64,000 nt of DNA from the NCBI GenBank assembly GCA_949317995.1, contig OX439052.1, forward strand, positions 41,164,599 through 41,228,598, in the 5' to 3' direction. Both the position numbers and the translations under genes were made by a program. The notes below the pieces were generated by a model. That model was not told the DNA's origin, searched no databases, and worked only from the letters and a program-made list of their open reading frames with translations. Source of the DNA: Acholoe squamosa (taxonomy: Eukaryota > Annelida > Polychaeta > Phyllodocida > Polynoidae). Shown piece by piece: positions 9,287-62,550 of this stretch (positions are counted from its first letter, which is position 1; every line of letters begins with the position of its first letter).

Positions 9287-11060
9287 TCGATGTGCACCTT
9301 GAACATCTAACTCTTTAACCCATCAAGCGCCTATAGAATATTATTGCATTTTACATCTTACCCATTGGTCTGCAAGATGCATGGATGGAACCTTGGCAAA
9401 TGACTAGCCAGGGGGACTGTACTCATGTATCCTGCCAAGGCTGTCTGCAATATTGAAGTGAAAAGCCAGGCGTCATGTGATCATGTGAACCATAGATGTG
9501 CGATTGATATGCACATAAGGCATAGCCTAGGTATGAAGCACCAATTGAAGATTGTATTTTTGCAGAATTATTGTCGATTTTACTAATCTGCATAATTAGT
9601 TATGACATGTAAGCTTGCTTCCTCAGGTATCACGCTAGCCCTACAGAGTTATCCAAGCACTGCCTGGGGCTACTCACTCTATCACCTCATCACTTCTCAT
9701 ATCTCATACCACAGAACATCAGGTGCTCCGTGTGTAACAACCGCTGCCTCTACATTAAACTGTATCTCACTCCTAATAGCTATGATTTGTAATACAGAGA
9801 GTAATTACAGATCTTGTGTAAAACATCTCAAACGGATTTGATTAGCAATATCAAACTGATTCAAATTGGACTTGTTGAAACGAAATTAATAGAAAAATAA
9901 TAAAAAAAATCAAGAAATCATGTGCTTACTCATCACAACCTATGCTTATCTACTCTAAAACTACACTAGCCTCTCCCTCCATAAAACCACCCATAAATCC
10001 CCCCCCCCCCCCAATACACTGAACTACCAGAGCAGCTGCAATGTTCCATGTTATCGCCCATCAAATATGCCGCTTGTGGAGCCACCTATTTCTGGCCACA
10101 TTAACTCCTGTGCTGCTCACCAGGGGGCGATACCAGAGCCACCATGTTGGTTTTTCAGCTGACCCGGAAGTCGTCAGCTCTGCTACTTCCTGCTGGGATA
10201 TCGCCATCTCTCGCAGCATCCTGCGGTCCTGCGAGATATTGGCATACTGGGAGGAAGATAGATGTATCTAATTGGTCCTGTTTGTTTACCATATCCTATA
10301 GCTGACTCTGGGGAAAGTGAAACATGATGAAAACAGTCTGATAACTTTGCTTTGGCACAGGTTTCAGTCGTCTATCGTAGTATCTCTCATATAAAGCAGA
10401 GCTTATGTGATGTAGACCCCAGACTTAGGGTGTGCTTTTTACAAGTGGTGTATGGTTTGTTTATCAGCTGCACTAAAACTCCCAAAAATGTACCACATGT
10501 ACCTTATGGGATTCCATCAAAATCAGCAGACTGCACCTTTTAAGTTCTTAGTTTGATTGTTGCAAAAGGAGGTTTTTGAGTCAAATGCCATAACAGTTCA
10601 GGATCTTGACTGTCAAAAGTAACTGTTGAATCTATACAGATCTCCTCATAAAGCTGAACAATGCACCACTGTAATTGAATAGTGTAGTGGAATTCCCTGC
10701 AAAGGGGGTCTAGTACTTCTCGTTGTGTTCTTAAGTAGAAGGGAACTTGAAAGGGCTCCAAGTTCAGACCACTAGGATGGCAATAACACTAGGTCAAGGA
10801 CAGATGATGACAAGGAAAATACAGTTCAATATATTTTATTACTAAAAGAAGTGCTCAGTATTTGTCCACAAGTCTATGTAAATAAATGAAGTTAACACTG
10901 AGGGGCCAGGATATCGCTAAGCCCACATGTAGGTGATAAAGTATGGATAGGGGCCTGGTCTCCAAACATAAATAAAGTTAGATGACTCCTGCAGCCGAGT
11001 TAAGGATGGTCCATAGAAGTTGAACAACTCCGGCCCAGGGATGACGGTGTTAGGTTGAGT
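9287..11060. other. Gene-free region with a C14 run
   Basis: No supported gene. A homopolymer of C lies near 10000-10013. The minus-strand frame at 10540-10761 is open for 73 codons but shows no family motif. The first 100 bases resemble 4700-5050 on the other side of the transposon. Confidence 0.4.
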
Positions 11061-11070
11061 GTTAAAGGTG

Positions 11071-11345
11071 TTCGGTTCCAGTGGGGTGGACCTGCAAGGT
11101 GCAAAACAGTGCTCTGTTGAGTGACTCAGACTCATTTTAAAGTTGTTTGGTTCCAGTGGGGTGGACCCGGGAAGGTGCGACATAGTGCTCGCTTGAGTGA
11201 CTCGGACTTATGTTAAAGTTGTTCGGTTCCTGTGGGATGGACCCGGGAAGGTGCGACACGGTGCTTGCTTGAGTGACTCAGACTCATGGTAAAATTGTTC
11301 CGTTCCAGTGGGCCGGACCCAGGAAGGTGCGAAGACTGCTCCTGG
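11071..11345 (+). repeat. 76-bp minisatellite, four units
   Basis: The words GGTTCCAGTGGGGTGGACC, GGAAGGTGCGAC and GAGTGACTCAGACTCAT recur at 75-76 bp spacing; the GGTTCC box starts at 11074, 11149 and 11225 and as CGTTCC at 11301. Units differ by a few bases. Downstream, a shorter CAGTGAGGTGGTGGAG-like motif repeats to about 11400. Confidence 0.85.
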
Positions 11346-29299: not shown

Positions 29300-29760
29300 A
29301 AACCTTCCTGAACCCTAACAGTAGCCACTGTTAGTAGTAGCCACGGTTATTTTACAGCACAAACCTTTGGCAACTTTGGTTCCAATACATATTGCTGTAA
29401 ATCTACAGCAGGTGAGTTGCTGTAATTCTACAACACAATCCACAGTAACCATACAGTAATAACCACACCAACCATACAACAAGATCATTCAGCTCTACAG
29501 AAACATATGTTATAAATAAACAGCAACATATGTTATAGAATTACATAAATATGTCTTGTAAAATAACACTAATATTTTCTGTAAATAGACAGCAAGTTTT
29601 GCTGTAAATGAACAGCAGAATATACTGTAAATTTATAGAAACCTTTGCTGGCAACTGAGGTTCCAGCAACTATTGCTGTAACTCTACAGAAGCTAGGGGT
29701 GTAGTATTACAGCAACAGGTTCTGTGAATCTACCAGAACTGTATTGTATAGTATGTATAG
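29300..29760 (+). repeat. TGCTGTAA/TTACAGCA repeat R2, copy 1
   Basis: Many spaced TGCTGTAAATCTACAGCA-like palindromic words. The segment TTTGGCAACTTTGGTTCCAA near the left end recurs as CTGGCAACTGAGGTTCCAGC near the right end, a direct internal duplication. A second copy lies reversed at 46927-47500. Non-coding; possibly a MITE made of short palindromes. Confidence 0.7.
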
Positions 29761-38056: not shown

Positions 38057-39980
38057 TCAGTTCTGGGGTGGATTTTCTCCCGCTATGGCACATGGTGGCT
38101 GGGGGGTATATGCCAAGCCATGAATGTCATTCCAGTCCCTAAACAATAAGAAATAGAATGTTATCAGTAGAAGTGACTGCATGATAAGCCATTTCCTAGG
38201 GACTGGTGATTAGTTATCTACAGGGACGATGGTGAGTTTGAGGAGGGGGTTTAAAAACTGTTGACTATAGTCAAAGAGGGCCATTAAAACTTTCCCTGCC
38301 TCTGGTCCATCAGGGATGGGGAAGAAATGTTGACTGCATCATCAGAAAAACTCACCACCCAAAGTTGATAAATAATGACCACTCTCTTACTTATATGCAA
38401 CAACCCTGGTGCATTCATGTATCCTGCAAAACCTGAGGGATTGATGTACACTCTCGGGGGTCAGCCATGATGCACAAAATTTATGACTTTGAAGAACTTA
38501 GATTTTGAATTTTTCTTTGAATTCGACACAGGTAAAAAAATTCAATCTGATAAATCACCCCCGGGAAATCACCATTAATGACTAAAAGTAGATTCTCATG
38601 CTTTGTCTATATATCTTAATAAAAAGAAAAAATTCTTACATAAGGATATTTTCGCTCAGTATATCAATGACCACCGGAGTGACACTGTTGATGTTGAAGC
38701 GGAGAACACCACGGAAGGCTGTGTGGAACTTGGGCATGAGGCAGTTCTGGAGGATGGGAAAAATGGTGCTGGTAAGGTGCCACACTAGTAATCCAATTTG
38801 TTGATGGTGAATAGTGAAGCTAGCCATTTTATGAGCCTGCAATTGAGAAAGAACATTTATTTGTCATATGAATCTTATGGTTTTGTAAATTCTAGGGGTC
38901 CCCATCTCACAATAAAGTACCCATTCTGAATAACAAGGATATAATGTTGTTTTTCATCAACTATTTATGTGTCTAGATTTTTACTTAATAAAGCACTAAC
39001 TTGATGTTAAGTGAGTGCCTGTCTTGGATAGACTTCTGGAAATCGCTTTTCGCCAGTTTAGTATTTATGCAGATACAGTATGTATCACTATAAATTCAAA
39101 TTTTCTTGTAAATATGACTCACCTGTGAAGATATTATGACCATGTGTATGGTCAGTAGAGAGTAGACAGCATACAGAATGGCCATAGTTTTTGTCAGTAT
39201 GTGCTGTCTCTTCTCGATGTTCCTTAATGTTGAGTTCATCTGTTGTGGGAATACTTTTCGCTGCTTATGCATGATGAGACCAAGGATGATGTAATTTCCG
39301 ATTGTAAGGGCACTGATGATCAAATAAGGATAGACTAAGAGGATATCTACATCGTCATTGTTCAACAGCAAGGAGTATGCACAAATCGGCATACTCAATG
39401 TTGCAGCAGAGCCAAGTGTGAATATCAAGCTGAATATTGCTAATGTTCCACTCCAAATCAGAATCTGACAGATCAGAGTTCGTTGTAAGGTCAGATATTT
39501 GGCGTATTTGAAGCGGGAAGTGATACAGATGAGTCGGTCAATTGAGATCATATAGAGAGTGATTATATTCACATAGGATGAAACCACAAATAACAACTCA
39601 TTGAAAATGCAGAAACCAATCCATTTTACAGTTCCCTTGAATGAGACTGCAAAAACAGAGAATACCGAGAGTAGAGCATTGAGAATTCCAGTCACAGAAA
39701 GGTTAGCCAACAAGTAACATGTCAGGTTCTGTAGCATTTCATAATGGCTCACAGCAATTATGACCAGGAGATTACTGCATAATCCAACCAGTGACTCGAT
39801 CCAGCGCAACAGATAAAAGTAGACCCCACTTTTTCTGTCGTGACTGATGCCAGCTATCATAGTAGTAAAGTCCAGTGAATGCGATGTTGTATCTAACAGT
39901 GCATCAGTTTGTATATATTTGCCATTCAAGGTACTCATAATCAGAGTAGTGTTCTCCATTGGACCTGAGGTAAAATCCAT
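38057..39980 (-). CDS. Atypical rhodopsin-like GPCR, paralogue 1 (three exons)
   Basis: Exons, in transcript order: 39123-39980, 38640-38836 and 38138-38057. Donors are GTGAGT and GTAAGA, acceptors TTGCAG and GTTTAG, intron phases 0 and 2; the product is 378 residues. Exon 1 gives a short N-terminus with a likely glycosylation site (NTT, 10-12) and TM1-TM6: N70 in TM1, C124 and C200 as the probable TM3-ECL2 disulfide, DRL instead of DRY at 148-150, and W176 in TM4. The usual TM2 aspartate is replaced by G98 and TM6 lacks CWxP. Exon 2 gives TM7, where NPxxY reads FPILQ; exon 3 is a soluble tail, DWNDIHGLAYTPQPPC. Class A membership is clear, but ligand and coupling are unknown; the altered microswitches suggest a lineage-specific sensory or orphan receptor. 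A second in-frame ATG at codon 8 is an alternative start. Confidence 0.85.
38904..39095. other. Intron 1 of receptor 1 (37-bp margins excluded)
   Basis: AT-rich sequence between coding exons 1 and 2; the whole intron is 38837-39122, 286 bp, close in size to the 267-bp intron at the same position in receptor 2. No other feature. Confidence 0.6.
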
Positions 39981-42823: not shown

Positions 42824-43242
42824 TGTAGGGGCACGGTTTAGTAGTAGTGTTTATGGCTTACGGGTTGCCTAGGTTCAGAGCGGAGCGGCCTTTCGGGTTG
42901 AGAGCCTGGTACGCCTGGCGGGCGGTAGCAGCACCACCCTCCGGGCTGCGTGGGTTAAACACGAGAGGTCGCCACCCAACCCCTGTGGCTATATAATAGT
43001 CGGGTCGGAACCTAGGACGAGGAGAATCCTACCGGATTCCCTAGGAATACCATCTGAACTTTACTGACTCCGAAGCCTTACCTGGTAGTCGTAAATCCGA
43101 GCTTTCCGAACAGTCCCTTTACCATACGGAATCTATTTAGCTCCCTGTAACTTAGGATACTGAATAAAGACTTGTTGCCTTTTGAAACCGGATGTCCTTG
43201 TATTCGTGATCCTTTCCGAACCATTAACGGTCATACATTACA
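42824..43242 (+). mobile_element. 5' LTR of a retrotransposon
   Basis: Begins TGTAGGGGCACGG and ends CATACATTACA, the TG...CA pattern of LTRs, and is immediately followed by a primer-binding site. A TATA box (TATATAA, 42990-42996) and a poly(A) signal (AATAAA, 43163-43168) mark U3 and the R/U5 part. The LTR is 419 bp and clearly more GC-rich than its surroundings. No second copy occurs in the window, so the element is truncated at its 3' side. Confidence 0.8.
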
Positions 43243-43243
43243 C

Positions 43244-43261
43244 TGGTGCCGTGACCAGGAT
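43244..43261 (+). other. Primer-binding site, tRNA-His type
   Basis: TGGTGCCGTGAC is complementary to the CCA-tailed acceptor end of animal tRNA-His (…GTCACGGCACCA); the next bases CAGGAT would extend into the T stem. It starts two bases after the LTR end, as expected for minus-strand priming. Confidence 0.7.
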
Positions 43262-43398
43262 CCAGTTTTCGGAAGTGCGCAGCCCTGTCTGAACAAGGCG
43301 AGAATCAGAGTCCGGAAGGTGGGTTTCTGGGAAGCCATGGTGCCCCGGGCCTAGCCTATCAGGAATATAGGGATCCATCTCGGAATGAGGCCGAGACA

Positions 43399-46112
43399 TT
43401 GGATTCCGGGAGTGAAGTGTCTACGGTAGAGTTGGACGCTACAACTGACGACCATCTGATCGCACCGGCTAACCAAACCGCGCCCAATATAAGATCATCA
43501 GATTTATTGAGGGATGGGGATTTTAGTAGTCCCATCACCTTGGCCCAAGTCCCTGGTACTGAGCCACGAGGACGGGGGAGAGATCCGATTCACCTTGTGC
43601 CCTTGGCTGGTCAAGGAGTTTTTTTGAACCACCTAAATTCAGCATCCCTTTCTGACTCCATTTTCAATCCCGGTGGGTCCAGTCAACCGGCTCCTGTGAT
43701 AGATACCGGGAGGAAAGGAAAGGAATAAGTATGAATCAGAAAGGACAGCTCATGCGGAATGGAAGCGGATGAGCGATCAGGAAAAGTCCATGGGTGAAAA
43801 GCTGCTGGAATATCAGAAGAAAGAGACCGAGTGGAAACAGAATAAGGTAAAAGAGTTAGAAAGGGAGGTCGAAGACCTCATAGACGAAATTGGGGGCCTA
43901 CGTAAGAGTAAGGGATTGTTAGAATGTACCACAGAAACCTTGGAACAAGAGGTGGATGTCCACCGTACTCGACTCCGAGAGATTGAGGCTATGATTCAGG
44001 GTAAGAAAGCCGAATATGAAAGGTACGGGAAGAAAGTTGAGGAAGTCGAACTGCAACTGAGTCTGGCGACCTCCACCCTGGAAGCTAAGACTTCAGAGCG
44101 GGACGAGACTATGGGACAATACCGAACGGGGCTAGGTGTCGCTGGTAAGCACCTTACCGATTTGAAAAACCAAATTGATGCCCAACATGAGATTTACGAA
44201 AAGAATCGGAAAATCATAGAGAAACAACAGAAAGAACATGTGGCCCTTCGGGAGAAACATATTCAGGAGAACGATCGGTTGATCACTGATATTCAGGATA
44301 ACAATCGGGAGTTGTATCAGGAGAGAGATGATCTCATATATGAAATTACTAAGCTGCAGATGATGCAGGAGGGGTCCGAGGATTCCGAGGAAGAAGAACC
44401 GGATCTCGAGGAGTCAGATGAGAATGAGGGAGCATTGGAGGATCCCAATATCAGTTGTTTCCCACGGGATGGCGGGGAGGAAGGTCCACCGATCACCTCT
44501 ACCCCAAAACCCATTCTGAAGAAGGGGTATGACCCCTTTGTGAATAATCAGGCCACCCGGAATGTCGTAGGGGACACATATGTTTCCGGCAATGATAAGA
44601 ACGTTCGGCTAAGTGTGGGTCAAAAGGACGCCACCTTCACCACCGACGGTAAATATCAGTACATTGACACCAGGGGGCAAGCCCTGACCCCGAGTCACTT
44701 CAACCACGCTCCTCCAGGGAGCGCTGGAGAACTAGGCGACATACCTAGCCACTGCAGGACAGCAGTCAGTCTATTCCGAACAATCAGACCTATAGGGTGG
44801 ATAGTCAGGCGTGTAGTACCGATCAGAATAACAACGACACCCCGTGTGATAGTGGGACTTACCACACCGGTGCTCAGGCTCCTGGGGGTATAGGACCCCA
44901 ACCTGGTATGAATACAGGGTATGGGTTTACCTTCTGGAATAGTCCGAACAACAGTCATCCGGGATCCGGTGGTCCGGGATCCAATGGATCTGGTGGGGGT
45001 GGTAAGAAAACCAAGGATCAGAAAATGTTAGATTGGAGTCTGGAGCAATGTACTAGGTTGAAAAGTAGGGAGATCTCAGCTAAGAAGAATCAGATCGAAA
45101 CTAAGTCCTTCGATAGGTCAGAACCATGGAGAGATTGGTTTTCGGACTTCACGGATGACCGTGAGGTAGATGGATATGATGAAGACGAATCGTTACCTAT
45201 ACTGGTCAGATGCCTGAAAAAGGGGCCAGGTAGGATTGCGGTCGACCATTGGAGAGAACAGTATAAGAATAGGGGAACGTACACTCAGTTAGTTGAGATT
45301 TGTAGTTCCTATCTCGGAAATATAGTGTCGGAGGATCCGATGACTCAATATAGGAAGAGAATTCAGAAGCCGGGAGAGTCGGTTCAGGTTTATGGATTGG
45401 AACTTCAGATATTACTACGGAAGGCTAGACCTAACCTGGTAATGGATGATGATTATGTGAGTGATGAATTGATCTCACACTTCGTGTGAGGACTACGAGA
45501 AAAAGACCACCAGGACTGTGCTTACCGAGCATGGGGTCCGGGTGCGACTATGAAAACGTTATGTGATGCCATAACCAATTTGAATAAGAAGAAAACTTTT
45601 CTTTCCGGATTTGTCCCTCGGGAAACCACCAGTATGGTACTCCCTGATCTGAAACCAGTAATCCCTACTGCAGCAGCCGCTGTCTCGGAAACTGAAACGG
45701 AATATGAGACAGTAGAATATGAGGAAGAAGACGGAACAATCTCAGCATTGAGGTTCCCTAAGAATGCCAAGAAGTTCATTCCCAGAAGGACCTTGACTAC
45801 TCAGCCAAGGTGGGGGGTTCCCGAGAGTCGCGATAAGAGTGTTTCCGAACCCAAGGAAACTATAGTTAAGAAGGATGAGAGTAGGCCATCTGGAAGCCTA
45901 GATATGAAGAGTATGATAGAGAGAGTATGCTGAAGTCTTTCCGGGAGGACCTTGAAAGTCACCGGTATAGTAGGCCGAGGTATGATAAGTCTAGGATCAG
46001 ATGTTATCGCTGTCAGAAAATGGGTCATGTAGCCTATGAGTGCCAGGCTGCTGAGCCAGTTCCCCGGAATATGTCGGCAGTTGAGGAGATGGAACCTAAT
46101 TCGCAAAATTAA
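43399..46112 (+). pseudogene. Broken gag of the LTR retrotransposon
   Basis: In order: a Ser/Pro-rich start (43399-43728), a frameshift, a long Glu/Lys-rich coiled coil (43769 to about 44370) and an acidic linker. A second frameshift near 44755 leads to a Gly/Asn-rich linker and a gag core (about 45010-45490). The core contains WRDWFSDFTDDREVDGYDED, LPILVRCLKKG, a W in DHWREQY and the KPGESVQVYG stretch typical of Retrotrans_gag domains. An in-frame TGA at 45487-45489 interrupts it, after which the frame resumes to 45933. The 45927-46112 frame holds a CCHC zinc knuckle, CYRCQKMGHVAYEC. The order capsid then knuckle fits Ty3/gypsy-like gag; the long N-terminal coiled coil is unusual. No protease, RT or integrase is present, so the copy is dead. 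Confidence 0.8.
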
Positions 46113-46391
46113 GGAGGGTTGAGGATGTGGCGGATTGCTCAACCCGGAAACTTGTTGTATGCCAGAGTACTGTCCCTGATAAGCCGTCTGATGAATCCGA
46201 AATGACTACACCCGGGGAGGAGGGATCCGAGATTGATCTCCTCGCCCCTCCTATGGCCGGGGACTCCAACATAAGTGAGGACACTGAATTTGTAGTAAAG
46301 GAAAGTATGCGCATTGGAGAAGAGGAAGGGTGGATAGAGGTATTCACACGTGTATGTGCGGCACACCTTCCCCCGAACCATCCATGTCTGG
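46113..46391 (+). pseudogene. Retrotransposon remnant after gag
   Basis: An open frame from 46127 (acidic and Ser-rich, with DLLAPPMAGDS and GWIEVFTRVCAAHLP) continues until the tRNA-bearing repeat begins at about 46392. It may be the gag-pol linker. No aspartic protease motif (D-T/S-G) is visible, so truncation precedes it. Confidence 0.4.
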
Positions 46392-46926
46392 AGGTTGGGG
46401 GCTGTGTAGGGGAACATGATTTCCCGTGCCCGGTTGGCCGACCCGCAGGGGCGGGTCACCGGGTAGTCACATGTTCCCTATCGGTATCACACCGATCCAG
46501 GCGTAGGTGGAAGGTAGAGAACGTCAGGTCAGGGGAAGTAGCTCAGAGGAAGAGCTTCTGCTTTGAAGTTGGAGGGTCCCGGGTTCGAGTCCCGGTTTCT
46601 CCAAAGACGTTTTCCGCCGACCTCTACACTGGTGGAGAAACCAAGTAGTCCTGACCCGCATGAGGGGGGCCTACGGAACTCGGTCCCTGGGTTGGTGTGA
46701 TACGGCAAGCGCTTCGACCTGCTAGCACTGGGAGACTTGGAAACAGGTGGTACATACAGTACGTCCTGGGAACAGGACAAATCGGAGCTGTGTGTGACTC
46801 AGTGCTGGTTAATTCGGTGGTCGAAGCTGGTTGGGGGCTGTGTAGGGGAACATGATTTCCCGTGCCTGGTTGGCCGACCTGCAGGGGCGGGTCACCGGGT
46901 AGTCACATGTTCCCTATCGGTATCAC
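46392..46926 (+). repeat. tRNA-bearing tandem repeat, array A (1.2 units of 436 bp)
   Basis: The word TGTAGGGGAACATGATTTCC starts at 46405 and again at 46841, giving a 436-bp period. The second unit stops after about 90 bp, so the array has the same segment at both ends. Each unit begins with a compound hairpin: TAGGGGAACATG (46407-46418) with CATGTTCCCTA (46470-46480), enclosing GACCCGC-AGGG-GCGGGTC (46440-46457). A tRNA-like segment and a 225-bp tail follow. It lies directly on the broken end of the LTR element and is homologous to the array at 54225-55291. Confidence 0.8.
46532..46603 (+). tRNA. tRNA-like gene or tRNA-derived SINE head, array A
   Basis: A 72-nt cloverleaf-like segment: acceptor GGGGAAG/TTTCTCC, D arm GCTC/GAGC, T arm CCGGG/CCCGG with loop TTCGAGT. 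The A box (TAGCTCAGAGG) and B box (GGTTCGAGTCC) are intact. The anticodon stem pairs poorly (TCTGC/TTGGA), and the nominal anticodon TGA would mean serine, yet there is no serine-type long variable arm. It is more likely tRNA-derived than a working tRNA. Confidence 0.5.
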
Positions 46927-47500
46927 AAAACAAAACCTCTTGCTTTAGTTCTACACTTCTAGTTTCTGTAAAATTACAGCAATAGTTGCTTCAACCTCAG
47001 TTGCCAGCAGAATCTTCTGTAATATTTACAGTACATTTTGTTGTTCATATACAGCAAAACTTGTTGTTTATTCACAGAAAATCTTGTGGGCTTCCCTAGC
47101 CCACTTAAAAGGGTCTACTTCTCATCTTTCCTATCCCCTCAGGATGTGTGTGGTGCACATATGCATTGGCACTGACACATTCCTCTGTGAAATTGTGTAA
47201 TGTCGTTCTCGCCATGAATATATGACCTTAGCTGTCGAAATGGCGTTAAACATCTATAACTATAACTATAACAGAAAATATTGCTGTTAATTTATAAGAC
47301 ATATTCTGTAATTTTACAACATATTTTGCTTTTAATTTACAACATGCATTTCCCTAGCTCTGAGTGGTCTTTCTGCATGATCACAGTGGTTGTTACTGTA
47401 TGATTATTGTGGATTGTGCTGTAAAACTACAGTGTTTCACCTCCTGTAGATTTACAGCAAAAGGTACTGGAACCAGAGTTGCCAATAAGATTTGCTTCAT
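46927..47500 (-). repeat. TGCTGTAA/TTACAGCA repeat R2, copy 2
   Basis: Reverse complement of the 29300-29760 family: on the minus strand it reads TTGGCAACTCTGGTTCCAGT, TTGCTGTAAATCTACAGGAG, TTACAGCACAATCCACAATA in the same order as copy 1. It is interrupted by the short insertion at 47083-47270. Confidence 0.7.
47083..47270 (+). mobile_element. Short SINE or LINE 3' end with TATAAC tail
   Basis: 188 bp ending GAAATGGCGTTAAACATC followed by three TATAAC-like units, the microsatellite-type tail of many non-LTR elements. It is flanked by ACAGAAAAT at 47074-47082 and 47271-47279, an apparent target-site duplication. No open frame. Confidence 0.65.
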
Positions 47501-48724: not shown

Positions 48725-50639
48725 TTAGTTCTGTGGAAGATCTTCTGTTGTGAAGGGACAGGGCCGTGGTGGTGTCATGTACGCCAAGTTGTGAATTTCC
48801 CTGAAAAAATAGAAAATGAATCCATTAACTTTTTGAGAAACACTGTGTATAAGCTGCAAGTGCCTATAAGCCACACCCTGATATGCTGTCTTGATATTTA
48901 TAAGAAAAAATGCAGTTTAGGCATAGACAGTTTATGATGGAATTAAGGGGGCACAATAGGCTGGGTTGAACTGAACACCTAAACCTGTATAATTTAGAAG
49001 AAATCTTTCGTACCTTTGCACATCATACGCCATTATGTCCATATTGAGGTGTTACCATGGAATGAAATAGTTTTTTTTGGCTTTTGTTGCTTTGAACAGC
49101 ACTGACGGATAGAACTTATATATTTCTAAGATAGGATGAATCAAAATTGGAACTTTCTGAGGGTGTTTTCTTTCTTTAGTTCCTACCCCAAATATTAAGG
49201 TCTACAGAGGCATTTGAATTTCAATAGTTACCAAAATTGCAAAAAGAATCCCTGCTTTTTGGTAACTATGGAAAATATAAATAAAGCTCTTACATTAGGA
49301 AACCATCGGTGAATATATCGACGATTATTGGGTTGACGGTAACAGGGCGGCAGCAGGAGATATGGCGGAAGCTGAGCAGATGGTGGAATGCAGTCTGGAA
49401 TTTGGGTATGAGGTAGTTCAGGAGCAAGGGAAAAATGGTGCTGTTCAGGTGCCACACTAGTAATCCCACTTGTTGAAGGTGAACAGGGAAGGGATCCATT
49501 TTTTGAACCTGCAATTCAGATAAAAAACATTTAATTCTGACTCTTAGGGTGTCTACTTCAAAATAGGGTGCCCGTTAACAAAGATGAATGCTGCTGTTTC
49601 TTCCCTCTATTCGTATTAATATAAATAAATATATTTGGTTGATTTTCAAATTTAACTAAAATTGTCACTTGGCCCTTTAGGTTATTTCAATATCAATGCA
49701 TCAATAATTACCCTTAGGAGATATGTGAGACTGTGTTACAATTCGAATTCTAAATTGTTCATAAATTTGACCCACCTGTAAAGAGATTATGACCATGTGT
49801 ATAGTGAGGACAGAGTAGACGGCATACAAGATAGCCATTTTTTCTGTCAGAACGTGCTGTCGCTTCTGAATGTTCCGCAATGTCGAGTTCATCTGTTGTT
49901 GGTCTTTTTTCCGCTGCTCTTGCATGATAAATCCAAGCATGATATAATTTCCAATGGTTAGAGCGCTGATGAACAAATATGGATAAACTAAGAAGACGTT
50001 TATGTCTTCACTGTTCAACAGCAAAGGGTATGAACAAACAGACATACTCAATGTTGCAGCAGATCGAAGTGTAAATATCAAGCTGAATATTGCTATGATT
50101 CCAATCCAAATCAGGAGCTGGCACATCAGGGATCGGTGTAGGGTCAGATATTTGGCATATTTGAAGCGGGAGGTGAGGCAGATGAGTCTGTCAATTGAGA
50201 TCATATATAGAGTGATTATATTGACATAGGATAAGATCACATATACCAGCTCATTGAAAATACAGGATACCATCAATCTGACAGTTCCCTTGAATGAGAT
50301 TGCAAAAACAGAGAAGACTGACAGTAGAGCATTGAGGATTCCAGTGACAGCTAAGTTAGCCAACAAGTAACATGTTGGGTTCTGCAGCATTTCATAACGA
50401 CTCACAGCAATGATGACTAGGACATTACCGCATAATCCAATCACCGACTCAATCCAGCGGTATGGACCGAAGTAGATCAGACTTATTCTGTCATCACTTT
50501 TGCCAGCTATGGTAGTACTGAAGCCCAGTGGATGCAATGTTGTGTCTTGTAGTGCCTCCGTTTGATTATAGCGGCTATTAGACATGCTGAGAAGGCCTGT
50601 GTTAGTAGTGTTCTCCATCGTACCTGAGGTAACAGTCAT
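48725..50639 (-). CDS. Atypical rhodopsin-like GPCR, paralogue 2 (three exons)
   Basis: Exons, in transcript order: 49776-50639, 49294-49508 and 48800-48725, giving 384 residues with no stop. Donors are GTGGGT and GTAAGA, acceptors end TTGCAG and TTTCAG, intron phases 0 and 2 as in paralogue 1. Features: GN at 71-72 (TM1), LANLAVTGILNALL in TM2 with G100 where most class A receptors have Asp, C126/C202 as the likely disulfide, DRL at 150-152, W178 in TM4, and a TM6 without CWxP. Exon 2 supplies TM7 (VWHLNSTIFPLLLNYLIPKF), in which NPxxY is FPLLL. The tail, EIHNLAYMTPPRPCPF, keeps the LAY..PP.PC motif of the other two copies. Probably a functional seven-pass plasma-membrane receptor of unknown ligand. 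An in-frame ATG at codon 8 is an alternative start. Confidence 0.88.
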
Positions 50640-53300: not shown

Positions 53301-54224
53301 ATCTGGTTAAGAGGTAAACTTTCTTCCCTCGTGGCATGACCAAACCAGAATTTCAGCTGACAATTTAAGCACCTTTGAGCTCAGGGCCCTCTGACCTATC
53401 CCGACCCCCCCCCCCCCAATGCAGCCAGACCCCCCCCATCCCATTGGTAATGTTGTCCTAATAATGAGCTTGAATTTGCCTCCAGTCCCATCACTCTAAG
53501 GCTAACGATTTACAAGATATATGTGTTAAACCAATGAGGGAAGTAGAGAATCTGGGTTGTTCTGTTGAAAATTGCAAAATCTAATTTCTTGACAACTGTT
53601 GGTCCAATCCACTCAAGACCGGATCTGCATTTGATAAGAAATCAAAGCTTCTTTGTAACTGAATCTGATAGCAGTCTCTGAGCTTTTCAAAAATGTTTTA
53701 ACCTTGTAATTCCCTCAATTATATATTGATATCTGAGGAGGATGGTGAAACATAGGTGTACACTCTCTTTTTCCACAAGAGAAGAAAAGGTATGTTACAT
53801 TCAAGCTTCTTTTTCTCCTGTTTTCAGGAAAAGAGACTAAGGGTGGAAATCACTGCCAGATAAAGGAAATGTATGGCTCAATCGTGCAATTGAGGCCGAG
53901 TGGACTATGGGTTTTATGAATAAAAAAACCTCCAGAACTGAGCCAATGAAAGACAGCATCGACAGAGCAGTAAAGGACCTACAGGTGGTACTGACAAGTG
54001 AGGAGATTTTATAGCTGGGTGATCAGGTGGTGGGGTGCAAGGCTTTCATCTTGTCACTTTCAGGGAATCCATAATCATCAACTTAGAATAAACATTTAAA
54101 TGTGGCATGGTTAATAAGTACATTTCACTCTAATTTTATAAAAAATTGTTGAATTAACCTGCCAATAGGTTCAAACCCAGAGACACACAGAAATGAAAAG
54201 ATCTCATAAATACGTTGCTATATA
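53301..54224. other. Gene-free region with two C runs
   Basis: Poly(C) tracts near 53405-53417 and 53431-53437; otherwise nothing recognisable up to the tRNA-bearing array. Confidence 0.5.
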
Positions 54225-54352
54225 AGTGTAGGGGCAGTAATTCCCTGTACTCGGTGGCAGACCCCCAGGGGCGGGTCTCTGGGTAATCACTGCCCCCCCT
54301 AGTGTGTATCATACCGATCCAGGTGTGGATGGAAGGTGGAAATGTCAGGCCA

Positions 54353-54424
54353 GGGGAAATAGCTCAGAGGAAGAGCAGCCGCTTCGAAGTTGGAGGGTCC
54401 TGGGTTCGAGTCCCGGTTTCTCCA
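54353..54424 (+). tRNA. tRNA-like segment, array B unit 1
   Basis: 72 nt; acceptor GGGGAAA/TTTCTCC, D arm GCTC/GAGC, T arm CTGGG/CCCGG, A box TAGCTCAGAGG and B box GGTTCGAGTCC intact. The anticodon region is GCCGC-TTCGAAG-TTGGA, with little pairing and a CTTCGAAG palindrome, so aminoacylation identity cannot be assigned (nominal anticodon CGA). Confidence 0.5.
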
Positions 54425-54773
54425 TGACATTTTCCGCTGACCACTACATTGGTGGAGAAACTGAGCATCCTAACGCAATCACGGATTGAAGGTACGGGAA
54501 CCCCATATCTTAACGCAATCATGGATTGAGGACTCGGGAACTGGGTCGGTATGATACAGATAACGCTTCAGCCTGCTAGGGGTGAACTAGTCACCTGCTG
54601 GAGGTTGAGTTGGAGGAGCAGGGTTGGTTGAAGCTGATGGGGAGGAGTGTAGGGGCAGTAATTCCCTGTACTCGGTGGCAGACCCCCAGGGGCGGGTCTC
54701 CGGGTAATCACTGCCCCCCCTAGTGTGTATCATACCGATCCAGGTGTGGATGGAAGGTGGAAATGTCAGGCCA

Positions 54774-54845
54774 GGGGAAATAGCTCAGAGGAAGAGCAGC
54801 CGCTTCGAAGTTGGAGGGTCCTGGGTTCGAGTCCCGGTTTCTCCA
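54774..54845 (+). tRNA. tRNA-like segment, array B unit 2
   Basis: Identical to unit 1 across the cloverleaf. Its GGTTTCTCCA end (54836-54845) is perfectly complementary to TGGAGAAACC at 54874-54883. Confidence 0.5.
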
Positions 54846-55194
54846 TGACATTTTCCGCTGACCACTACATTGGTGGAGAAACCGAGCATCCTAACGCAAT
54901 CACGGATTGAAGGTACGGGAACCCCGTATCTTAACGCAATCATGGATTGAGGACTCGGGAACTGGGTCGGTATGATACAGATAACGCTTCAGCCTGGTAG
55001 GGGTGAATTAGTCACTTGCTGGAGGTTGGGTTGGAGGAGCAGGGTTGGTTGAAGCTGATGGGGAGGAGTGTAGGGGCAGTAATTCCCTGTACTCGGTGGC
55101 AGACCCCCAGGGGCGGGTCTCCGGGTAATCACTGCCCCCCCTAGTGTGTATCATACTGATCCAGGTGTGGATGGAAGGTGGAAATGTCAGGCCA

Positions 55195-55266
55195 GGGGAA
55201 ATAGCTCAGAGGAAGAGCAGCCGCTTCGAAGTTGGAGGGTCCTGGGTTCGAGTCCCGGTTTCTCCA
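55195..55266 (+). tRNA. tRNA-like segment, array B unit 3
   Basis: Identical to units 1 and 2 across the cloverleaf. The unit is cut at about 55291, so the downstream complementary box is missing. Confidence 0.5.
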
Positions 55267-55291
55267 TGACATTTTCCGCTGACCACTACAT

Positions 55292-57600
55292 AAGTTTGTT
55301 CCCTAGCTACTCTCTAATTAAAATGCGTATTGGCCAGCATTAAAAAATGCATATAAGTAGATTACTTCACTTTTATTCTACAAGAAATCATACTTTTGAT
55401 GTTTAATTCAAATTCTACATATACCTTTATTACCTGCCACACCTTGGCCACACCATCTGATCATAATTAGACAAAGGTGCACGAGAATATGTTACCACTG
55501 AGAATTATTACATAAGGCAGAGCGCAGTTTGGTAACACTCAGTGGTGATAGTGGTTATCAATTTGAGAGCACCATTGTATATATCTCAAGGTATAAAAAT
55601 CACAAGGATATAATTATATTTAAAAAAAAATCCCGACTATTTGGTATTAGAAAGGATCTTATCACTTTGGTACAGTAATCAGCAGTGTGATAGTGGGTAG
55701 GGTTATAACACAGGGGATGTGATACAGATGTTCTCGGTAAATTCCTATAGGCCCGTCAGATTTAATTTCTCGAATGCAACCTTGTATACAGACAGATCAG
55801 AGAATAAGGAAGCGGGTCTGCATGGCATTTCTCAATAGGCTATGCCTTGAGCTATTGCAGTTGTAGCAAAAGGATGAGGTACGACTAGATTACAGTCTGA
55901 GAATGCAGGAGGCTACTTCTAAAGGCACTAGGACTACACATCACTACTACAATTAGACAATCCCAGGAACCAGTGCAGGTGAACGTAGGATCTGCCTACG
56001 GCTGCATTGTAAGATAGGCACTTATGCCATAATTACATAAGGTTTGGTAGAACAGCCGTACTGCTGCAGGCAATGCTAACCATTAGTGTATAATAATGTA
56101 ATGGCATTATTGCAAGGATCCTCACTACGATTTGAAGTGCAGCAGTTATATTATGTTACGAAATGGCATCCAGAGCAATTGTATTGTCACCAGTAGCTCC
56201 CAGAATTTTGAGGTTGAGTTTGAGTTTTGAATATTTTTATTGCTGACTTTCATTTACATGATATTAATAAGCAATATTGGGCTGCCACGAACCTCTGGAT
56301 GGTATTAGATACTGCGTTATATGTTGTCTCTGACACTATTATTGAATGTGTCACAATACAATATTCTGTATTCATGAGCCAAGGATATTGAGGTATTATA
56401 TAGGAACTAGTATACATCTATTATGCACCATAACAGAATACAACATATAATCTTACACCTTGTCTTAGCCTAGACATAGGATTGATATCCTCCCTTAGCA
56501 AAAAGAAATCTTGAGTTCCTCAAGCTTATTCAGAAAAAAACACGGTAACTCTCATGCTAACAGTATGAAGCCCTGCCTAATACAAGTTCTATATTATATG
56601 CTAGAGATATATGATAGAGAATGGATTAATAGTGGTCGTAAACGCATGGCTTACTGCCCCTTCCTGTACTAATAATATAACATACCTTTTTCGTAACAGA
56701 TGTATTACTAGACCCAGTCCTGACTTACTAAGTTACTCAAAAATGTCACCTTGATAAACATTTCAAAGTTTTTGACATGCTGTTCCTGTACTGATGATGA
56801 ATTACAAGAAGAATGATTGAGATATGAGTACTAGTGGTCCATTCATTTGATTCAGTATTATGACAAGATAAGAGTTCAAATGTGCTTTTGGTAAAACTTC
56901 AAAGTAAATTTTCGAAATTAAAGTAAAAAGTAAATTTTCGTACAACTGCAAAGTATGACTTGAGGTATTCTGAGTAATATTAGCTGTGTCTACTGGCATA
57001 AAGTTGAGAATTGCCCTCTAAATTTTGTTGGTTGAGGCTTGTGGCCAGAACTGTCCCTGTTGTTCTAGAACTATTGTAGGGGGTAATTAACTAGTCGTTA
57101 ATTAATTAAGTCCCAAGATATATACCAGGTTCTTGGCTCATTAAATTTTCATTCCTGTGTTAGTGGTAGTGGTCCTCCTGTTGTGTGTACATACGGCTAG
57201 CCTCAGGCCTCAGTTTATTGCACTAAAAGTACCCTGCCATTAGCTGGTCCCTGCCCTACTCACTTCGCGCTGCTCCCTCCTAGATCTGTCCACACCGCTG
57301 ACACCCGTATCTCCTGCCCTTAGTCATACTTCTTAGTTCCCCACAGTCGCTACGTCAGAGGCCTCCGTATTGAACACTACTAAGAAAGTAAGATTAGCTG
57401 CCTCTCTTACACCTTCCCGGTAGCCGCTAGTGCTAATAAAACCATTGGCATACACTCAAATCACTGTCTTGTCTTTTCCTTCCTAATAGCGAGACTTGAA
57501 CCACAGAACTGGTAAAACAAACCATTTCAATGTTAATAAATATTGTGAAGAAATGTCCTCCTGTTACACTTCATCCTTTCTTTTGTACAACTATTAACCC
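55292..57600. other. Gene-free region, possible solo LTR at its end
   Basis: No coding exon recognised. 57154-57504 starts TGTGTTAGTGG, contains AATAAA about 65 bp before its end and finishes CCACA, which would fit a solo LTR of about 350 bp, but no flanking duplication or second copy supports this. Confidence 0.35.
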
Positions 57601-61500: not shown

Positions 61501-62550
61501 ATATATGAATAGGGATAGGGACAGGATAATGTTAGGTTTAGAACCCTTATTTGACAAGGAAATTGATATAAACCTATAGTCTGACTGTACATCTATAGGT
61601 ATGACGGGAGGAAATTTCTGGGGAGATGATTTCTAGGGTAGGAATTTTTTGTTGGTTGAGGGGGGGTTGGGTCCAGGGAGAAATCTACTAGAACTGTAAG
61701 TTTGACCCACCTGAGAGGATATGATGACCATGTGTATGGTGAGGACGGAGTATACGGCATACAGAATAGCCATCGTTACTGTCAGGTCTTGCTGTCTCTT
61801 CTCAATGTTCTTCAATGTTGAATTCATCTGTTGTGGTTCATTCTTCCTCTGATCCCATACTATAAAACCAAGCATGATGTAATTGCCGATGGTTAGAGCA
61901 CTGATGAACAAATATGGATAAACTAAGAAGAGGTTGACATCTTCATTCCTCAAAAGTAAGGGATATAAACAAACTGGCATGTTTAATTCTGCCTTTGAAC
62001 GGAGAGTGAATAGCAGGCCAAAGATTGCTGTGATTCCCATCCAAACTAGAATCTGGCAAGTCCCTGTCCGGCTTAAAGTCAAATACTTGGCGTACTTGAA
62101 GCGGGAGGTAAGGCAGATGAGTCGGTCTATGGAGAGCATATAGAGGGTGATTACATTTATATAGGACGAAACCACAAATAACAACTCCTTGAAGACACAG
62201 AAACCAATCCATTTGGCATTCCTTTTCATTGAGATTGTGAAAACTGAAAAGACCGATAGTGTTGAATTGAGCAAACCAGACACAGCCAGGTTAGCCAATA
62301 AGTAGAAGGTTGGGTTCTGAAGTGCTTTGTAACGCCTCACAGCAACTAGTACTAAGATATTACCACATAGGCCAACAAGTGACTCCATCCAGCGGAATGG
62401 ATTGAAGAAGGGCTTTTCTTTGCTGTCACTGATGCCTGTAGTATTGAGGTCCAATGGTGGCAATGTTGTAACTGACAGTGCCATGGTTTGGTTATAGAAT
62501 AGATTCAGTAGATCAGTAGTGTTATCTATCGCACCTGAGGTAGAATTCAT
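58593..62550 (-). pseudogene. Rhodopsin-like GPCR, paralogue 3, with premature stop
   Basis: Exons, in transcript order: 61711-62550, 59556-59752 and 58710-58593, with the same phases as paralogues 1 and 2 and longer introns (1958 and 845 bp). Exon 1 is fully open: GN at 63-64, C118/C194, DRL at 142-144, W170, NLAVSGLLN in TM2. Exon 2 carries an in-frame TAG at 59717-59719, at the codon where paralogue 2 has Gln, just before TM7; the rest stays open (VWHLNSCIFPIMYKFLLPKF) and keeps the final Tyr of NPxxY as FPIMY. Exon 3 reads DWSDIYSLAYIAPPPC, then a Gln/Glu-rich tail from an expanded GAACAA-type repeat. With one lesion and intact splice sites the loss looks recent, or the allele is null in this individual; a sequencing error or read-through cannot be excluded. 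Confidence 0.82.
59820..61600. other. Intron 1 of receptor 3
   Basis: Contains a G-run near 59820-59830, a triple AGCTCATGAGT-like repeat at about 61150-61182, and a degenerate GGATATGG-type simple repeat at 61435-61535. No other gene is visible. The intron is some seven times longer than in the other paralogues, probably through insertions. Confidence 0.5.

Follow-up and report, generated by a model that had tools for sequence, protein, structure and literature searches.

We asked what kind of element makes up two short tandem arrays, A and B, in a 64,000-nucleotide stretch (the window) of a 1.48 Gb, 63-contig host genome, and why their units carry a tRNA-like gene together with a short box complementary to it. 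An earlier note on this DNA had described tandem SINE-like units sharing one architecture of hairpin, tRNA-like gene and anti-tRNA box. The shared architecture holds (436 bp in A, 421 bp in B), as do the intact tRNA, the anti-tRNA box and the pairing of the hairpin; the SINE-like or satellite nature falls, because the units have long terminal repeats (LTRs) and target duplications. The arrays are miniature LTR retrotransposons (TRIMs) and, on the sequence evidence presented below, these TRIMs, which are of the Helenus type, probably encode their own primer for reverse transcription.

Tandem Repeats Finder reports array B as 2.5 copies of a 421-bp period with 98% match at 54225-55291. It is a single insertion in the order LTR-interior-LTR-interior-LTR, with outer ends at 54227 and 55290 and TAAG on both sides; the left copy of this target site duplication (54223..54226) stands directly before TGTAG, and the right one (55291..55294) follows from the parse against genomic copies. 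Every LTR begins TGTAG and terminates CTACA. All further features of both arrays lie on the plus strand, and the LTRs were placed by their boundaries and by the same parse. LTR 1 (54227..54448, 222 bp) opens with a head hairpin (54231..54296, arms GGGGCAGT and ACTGCCCC) and contains a tRNA gene (54353..54424) to which ARAGORN gives a Ser CGA anticodon and whose 3' end is TTTCTCCA. TTTT at 54430..54433, the sole four-T run of the unit, occupies the position of a Pol III terminator. One base 3' of each of the first two LTRs lies a primer binding site (PBS): TGGTGGAGAAACTGAG at 54450..54465 and TGGTGGAGAAACCGAG at 54871..54886. The short interior that follows PBS 1 (54466..54638, set by the element boundaries) leads to the polypurine tract GGGGAGGAG (54639..54647), which directly precedes LTR 2 (54648..54869) and recurs at 55060..55068 directly before LTR 3 (55069..55290). 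Both tracts were assigned by position, and a similar tract precedes the 3' LTRs of other copies. LTR 2 carries a tRNA gene at 54774..54845 with TTTT at 54851..54854, and LTR 3 one at 55195..55266.

Array A (46405-46927) follows the same plan. Its first LTR (46405..46628, 224 bp), placed by boundaries, parse and alignment, is identical to the B LTR in 180 of 226 aligned columns; it contains a tRNA gene (46532..46603) that likewise ends TTTCTCCA, with TTTT at 46610..46613. The PBS TGGTGGAGAAACCAAG (46630..46645) and, by position, the polypurine tract GGTTGGGGGCTG (46829..46840) come before a second LTR that ends after 87 bp (46841..46927, from repeat match and parse). The unit spacing of 436 bp is seen between 46393-46491 and 46829-46927, which match at 98%. 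The array breaks off inside this second LTR, and from 46928 a dispersed repeat begins that is also present, inverted, at 29367-29725.

To place the arrays among known elements, we turned to their genomic copies. First-look searches of the genome gave 2353 candidates for the B LTR and 2675 for the A LTR, with 40 scored per search, and the parsed set comprised 29 unique loci out of 40 fetched. An exact 4-bp target duplication flanks 15 of the 26 loci in which both outer ends are present (11 of 16 multi-LTR and 4 of 10 solo-LTR copies). Because such duplications flank multi-LTR and single-LTR copies, we read the tandem form as a TRIM with shared LTRs. TRIMs have two LTRs of ~100-250 bp in a unit under 1 kb, a PBS 3' of the 5' LTR, a polypurine tract before the 3' LTR and target duplications of 4-6 bp; here the LTRs measure 222-224 bp and the units 421 and 436 bp, PBS and polypurine tract are in place, and the duplications are 4 bp long. 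Arrays A and B are thus non-autonomous TRIMs, tandem via shared LTRs. The hairpin becomes the 5' part of the LTR, which also houses the tRNA-like gene, and what had been called the anti-tRNA box is its PBS.

A tandem SINE or a satellite with the hairpin as its structured head would also present tRNAs with A and B boxes, and units in tandem. SINEs, however, have no LTRs and insert by target-primed reverse transcription (PMC10886601). The LTR termini, the PBS, the polypurine tract and the 4-bp duplications at multi-LTR and solo-LTR copies leave that reading next to no probability; the duplications around solo LTRs refute it by themselves, and LTR termini with target duplications suffice to rule it out. 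A search for plasmid matches found none.

The earlier note recognised no standard class for the units, but a class with a tRNA in the LTR of a TRIM has been published. The available text of Kojima 2024 (PMC10886601) defines Helenus (TRIMp3) as TRIMs with tRNA-derived sequence in the LTR and, in animals, 4-bp duplications. By that published description of features the arrays are of the Helenus type: they share the TRIM form, a tRNA-like sequence within the LTR, PBS, polypurine tract and 4-bp duplications. They differ in one respect. According to the same text, the tRNA-like sequences proved not to be complementary to the PBS of their elements and were concluded to play no part in priming; the idea of a self-priming tRNA was weighed and rejected for the families examined, and a functional tRNA doubted. 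A tRNA in a TRIM LTR is therefore already known from Helenus. A PBS that matches the tRNA of its own LTR is what Kojima 2024 sought without success; here the PBS does match, and also co-varies with that tRNA. Other TRIMs are more distant: Cassandra, as described in PMC10886601, also has a Pol III gene in its LTR, but this is 5S rRNA rather than tRNA and is presented as a promoter, not a primer. The bivalve biv-TRIM (PMC6934838) likewise comes from animals and occurs both solo and in tandem, and tandem TRIMs with shared LTRs are reported there for bivalves and plants; unlike here, the available text identifies no canonical PBS and does not mention a terminal-repeat tRNA gene.

The hairpin opens the LTR, and its outer stem pairs in both arrays. 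Against shuffled sequence only the A head stands out (z -4.4); the B head is ordinary (z -1.3, with 20 of 200 shuffles as low). Across 12 LTR families, in which the arms co-vary, the mean pairing energy is -13.6 kcal/mol when each family keeps its own arms and -11.4 (sd 0.57) when arms are permuted between families, and 0 of 1500 permutations did as well, in a statistic that ignores the relatedness of the families. With that proviso, the covarying stem proposed earlier gains support.

Each complete LTR in the window contains one tRNA, and all four tRNAs are found by both ARAGORN and Rfam RF00005, at 47.5-47.6 bits; the A and B boxes described earlier as intact in all four segments are borne out. 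One TTTT per unit follows 5 or 6 bases 3' of the tRNA (checked in unit A and in both complete units of B), so that cloverleaf, A and B boxes and a T-run terminator, the sequence marks of a functional tRNA gene, are all present. In a further LTR family, D, whose tRNAs end TGTCTCCA, the scores reach 68.8 bits, among the best RF00005 matches of the genome (63 of 97417 candidates scored), and all 19 family D places fetched (L165-L183) lie inside LTRs of the tRNA-bearing kind. Because some LTR sets were chosen by homology or by TTTCTCCA plus TTTT, conservation of those letters in them is circular and we made no use of it.

The PBS is complementary to the 3' end of this tRNA. The box TGGTGGAGAAACC occurs exactly at 46630 and 54871, with a chance expectation of 0.01 exact matches in the window, and with one mismatch at 54450. 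At 54871, TGGTGGAGAAACCGAG pairs over 14 unbroken nt with the LTR tRNA end CGGTTTCTCCA plus CCA; contiguous pairing with the own tRNA plus CCA spans 12 nt at the first B PBS and 13 nt in A. In families A, B and C, the PBS TGGTGGAGAAACCGAG matches the own tRNA plus CCA over 14 contiguous nt. The usual PBS of family D, TGGTGGAGACACCGAG, pairs over 14 nt with the D tRNA, and cross-pairings between families reach only 9 nt. One D-type tRNA breaks the pattern, being followed by TGGTGGTTGATTC as PBS (L165). In the LTR the tRNA is followed by letters other than CCA, and therefore the first three PBS bases would pair with an end added after transcription, as with any tRNA primer.

If the PBS is kept to fit the element's own tRNA, the two should change together. 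We took loci by PBS and spacer base from listed places before their LTRs were seen, using a search pattern tied to the LTR end (ACA, one base, PBS). In the genomic copies sampled, PBS and LTR tRNA indeed change in step, through three states. With A at PBS base 10, tRNA nt 67 is T in 19 of 19 loci; 20 of 1450 places were fetched, all on contig C1, and 19 of them end their LTR tRNA in TTTCTCCA, the twentieth (L162) having an internally deleted LTR and being left out. With C at base 10, nt 67 is G in 17 of 19, A in two (L189 and L190, the counterexamples to the rule) and T in none; the end is exactly TGTCTCCA in 14. This sample took 20 of 253 places, from 100 listed and spread over the base before the PBS, and L192 was excluded for loss of its tRNA 3' half. 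For T at base 10 we wrote the expectation down before fetching: nt 67 is A, and nt 66-68 TAT, at all 11 places in the genome search, six of which carry exactly TATCTCCA, the other five being changed at nt 71 or 72 (read by eye). Four of these places cluster in 28 kb of C4 and two more in 0.5 kb of C11, and the 11 therefore represent fewer independent events. More generally, copies of one family are related and the counts are not independent events, so that the Fisher p of 1.2e-10 for the A and C states (T and G counts) is too small. A closer pair is L160 and L203: over the 60 nt that begin with the PBS they differ in base 10 alone, which in each tracks its own LTR tRNA.

Base 11 adds a second position. 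It is A, fitting the element's own T66, at 1450 places, against 85 with another base, of which 80 have C; in the C state it is A in 98 of 100 listed places and in the T state in 11 of 11. Among 20 fetched of the 85 rare variants, five tRNA-bearing LTRs go against this (L106-L110, with C, C, G, G and T). The published Helenus property of a PBS not complementary to the LTR tRNA is thus not what these copies have.

Might the true primer be a host tRNA-Ala, with the LTR tRNA serving only as a Pol III promoter, as in the published Helenus model, and the PBS likeness stemming from common descent from tRNA-Ala? We read 20 host Ala genes of 218 pattern matches: the 12 Ala-AGC genes end GTTCTCCA, the others CATCTCCA (seven) and CGTCTCCA (one), and the end TTTCTCCA is absent from all 20. 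With the A-family PBS, host Ala-AGC pairs over 10 nt, breaks at base 11, and reaches 16 of 18 overall, including bases 17-18. Since host AGC, CGC and TGC genes likewise show T, G or A at nt 67, base 10 alone could mean a change of host primer from one isoacceptor to another. Base 11 separates the two sources: with few exceptions it is A in each of the three states, as T66 of the LTR tRNAs requires, and the host genes read would put C, G or G there. Base 10, moreover, follows the own LTR even on the identical interior of L160 and L203.

Three Ala-AGC genes that do carry T66 give the host primer its best case. They lie in a dense tandem cluster of host tRNA-Ala-AGC genes (C12:51451334-51477176; one T66 gene read, L184). 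With the A-family PBS they pair over 14 contiguous nt and 17 of 18, better than the own tRNA (-28.5 against -26.5 kcal/mol); with the B PBS the two are about equal (-27.0 against -26.5), and with the C PBS the host gene is slightly worse (-26.9 against -28.0). The three genes fit the state with C at PBS base 10 poorly, at 9 contiguous nt, and cannot account for the T state. A host gene with the TTTCTCCA end may exist outside the Ala cluster; 30 of 1330 matches were inspected for one, all on C1.

Elements primed by the host look different. In the 20 places fetched of the 85 with base 11 other than A, ten carry an 18-nt host Ala-AGC PBS (L091-L097, L100, L104, L105), and in none of these ten is there a tRNA in the ~300 bases upstream, LTR parts farther out being beyond that view. 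The length of the match speaks against the own tRNA: it breaks off after 14 nt, base 15 of the common PBS being a mismatch, and the host-primed elements match over 18. Four more places (L098, L099, L101, L102) have neither the 18-nt host PBS nor a tRNA. We rejected L103 as a tRNA-LTR copy with a host PBS and read it as a deletion product of a tRNA-LTR, because the interior of family C holds nearly the same letters. Nine LTR-PBS places of a host-Ala-primed element at C16:47240804-47254904, spaced ~1761 bp apart, form a tandem array of another LTR element. Weighing both sides, we find priming by host tRNA-Ala improbable.

We favor priming by the element's own tRNA. From LTRs, duplications, PBS, polypurine tract, tRNA, terminator, PBS:tRNA match, covariation and an 18-nt footprint, all read in the DNA, we infer steps of transcription, processing, CCA addition and priming, and the existence of a partner. 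RNA polymerase III would transcribe the LTR tRNA gene via its A and B boxes and stop at TTTT. Host enzymes would trim the product and add CCA. Its last 14 nt would then pair, on the element RNA, with the PBS one base 3' of the LTR, and prime the minus strand, which a partner retrotransposon's reverse transcriptase would synthesize. A more tentative extension, which we regard as possible but doubtful, is a leaky Pol III gene: stopping at TTTT would yield the primer tRNA, and read-through to the next LTR a genomic RNA ending in the same tRNA; once cut and given CCA, that end might also prime its own or a sister PBS, and the element would be free of host primer tRNAs.

Footprints at the PBS bear on the form of the primer. 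In retroviral replication, plus-strand synthesis stops at the modified A58 of the primer tRNA and leaves an 18-nt copy. The PBS of L166, TGGTGGAGACACCGGGAT, is an exact copy of the 3'-terminal 18 nt of the tRNA in its own LTR and is followed by the family's usual interior; judged by its letters, this footprint has the length expected for such a stop. A PBS running at least 22 nt into the tRNA was found at 28 places, 26 of own-tRNA type and two of host type. T-loop letters fit the own tRNA in 17 of the 19 of these with a parsed LTR tRNA (L115 and L122 do not fit; seven more of the 26 are unparsed). We rejected the idea that 72-nt footprints mark full mature tRNA ends, since they were shortened by comparison with a different LTR. 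Many of the copies L113-L136 are palindromes of LTR, PBS and inverted LTR centred on the PBS:tRNA match. These palindromes show contact between PBS and LTR tRNA in the course of replication; as evidence for priming they are weak, because template switching could also make them.

The extended footprints raise the question whether a free tRNA is needed at all. The genomic RNA itself might prime: its 3' end, cut after the tRNA of the 3' LTR and given CCA, would fold back on the PBS or pair with it in trans, the tRNA then being a tRNA-like priming structure at the 3' terminus. The complement does run through tRNA and LTR head to the LTR start or at most 2 bases off in 16 of the 26 extended footprints, some reaching the interior, as such a primer would leave. 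Yet template switching at the PBS:tRNA match can give the same palindromes, the footprint in L166 ends after 18 nt, the length that a modified mature tRNA would leave, and the TTTT terminator suits a free tRNA. We consider priming by the genomic RNA unlikely, if somewhat less so than priming by host tRNA-Ala.

Priming by a self-encoded tRNA would depart from what is usual. To our knowledge, tRNA-primed LTR retroelements depend on a host tRNA for the start of copying. Tf1 takes its primer from the 5' end of its mRNA rather than from a tRNA gene. Tf1-type elements, named as self-priming in the available text of PMC6934838, are alike in that the element supplies the primer. A literature search for self-encoded tRNA primers, with most subscription journals and preprints outside its range, found nothing beyond Kojima 2024. 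If the proposal holds, the PBS is kept in step with the element itself and not with the host, the retention of a whole tRNA where a bare promoter would suffice is explained, and these TRIMs offer a natural test case for primer choice.

A gag-bearing LTR element adjoins array A. It occupies 42824-46404, with its 5' LTR from 42824 and the PBS TGGTGCCGTGACC at 43244, which we take to be tRNA-His-like. Its reading frames are broken, with a CCHC knuckle near 46000 (by eye). We saw no pol in 42824-46404, and a Pfam search of four reading frames of the gag stretch gave three matches, each below its cut-off and all in a single frame; the remaining frames had none. The element starts TGTAGGGGCA, like the B LTR, and on its 3' side runs directly, chimera-like, into a shared polypurine tract and the A-type tRNA-LTR. 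This start and this join suggest that reverse transcription brings the two kinds together.

Elsewhere in the genome, 24 places have an odd PBS after a B-type LTR end. Of six fetched, one (L144) is of the B type but has an altered PBS, and the other five (L139-L143) do not match the tRNA-LTRs; their LTR end is GACCACTACA, like family B. The PBS of L139-L142 is presumably tRNA-His-like, with one base changed in L142, and that of L143 a variant. These five elements are a candidate partner type. The window also holds three related reading frames at 39096-39980, 49701-50639 and 61633-62550 (minus strand), seven-helix-receptor-like by eye and forming a local gene family, and a 76-bp tandem repeat of 3.6 copies at 11060-11332.
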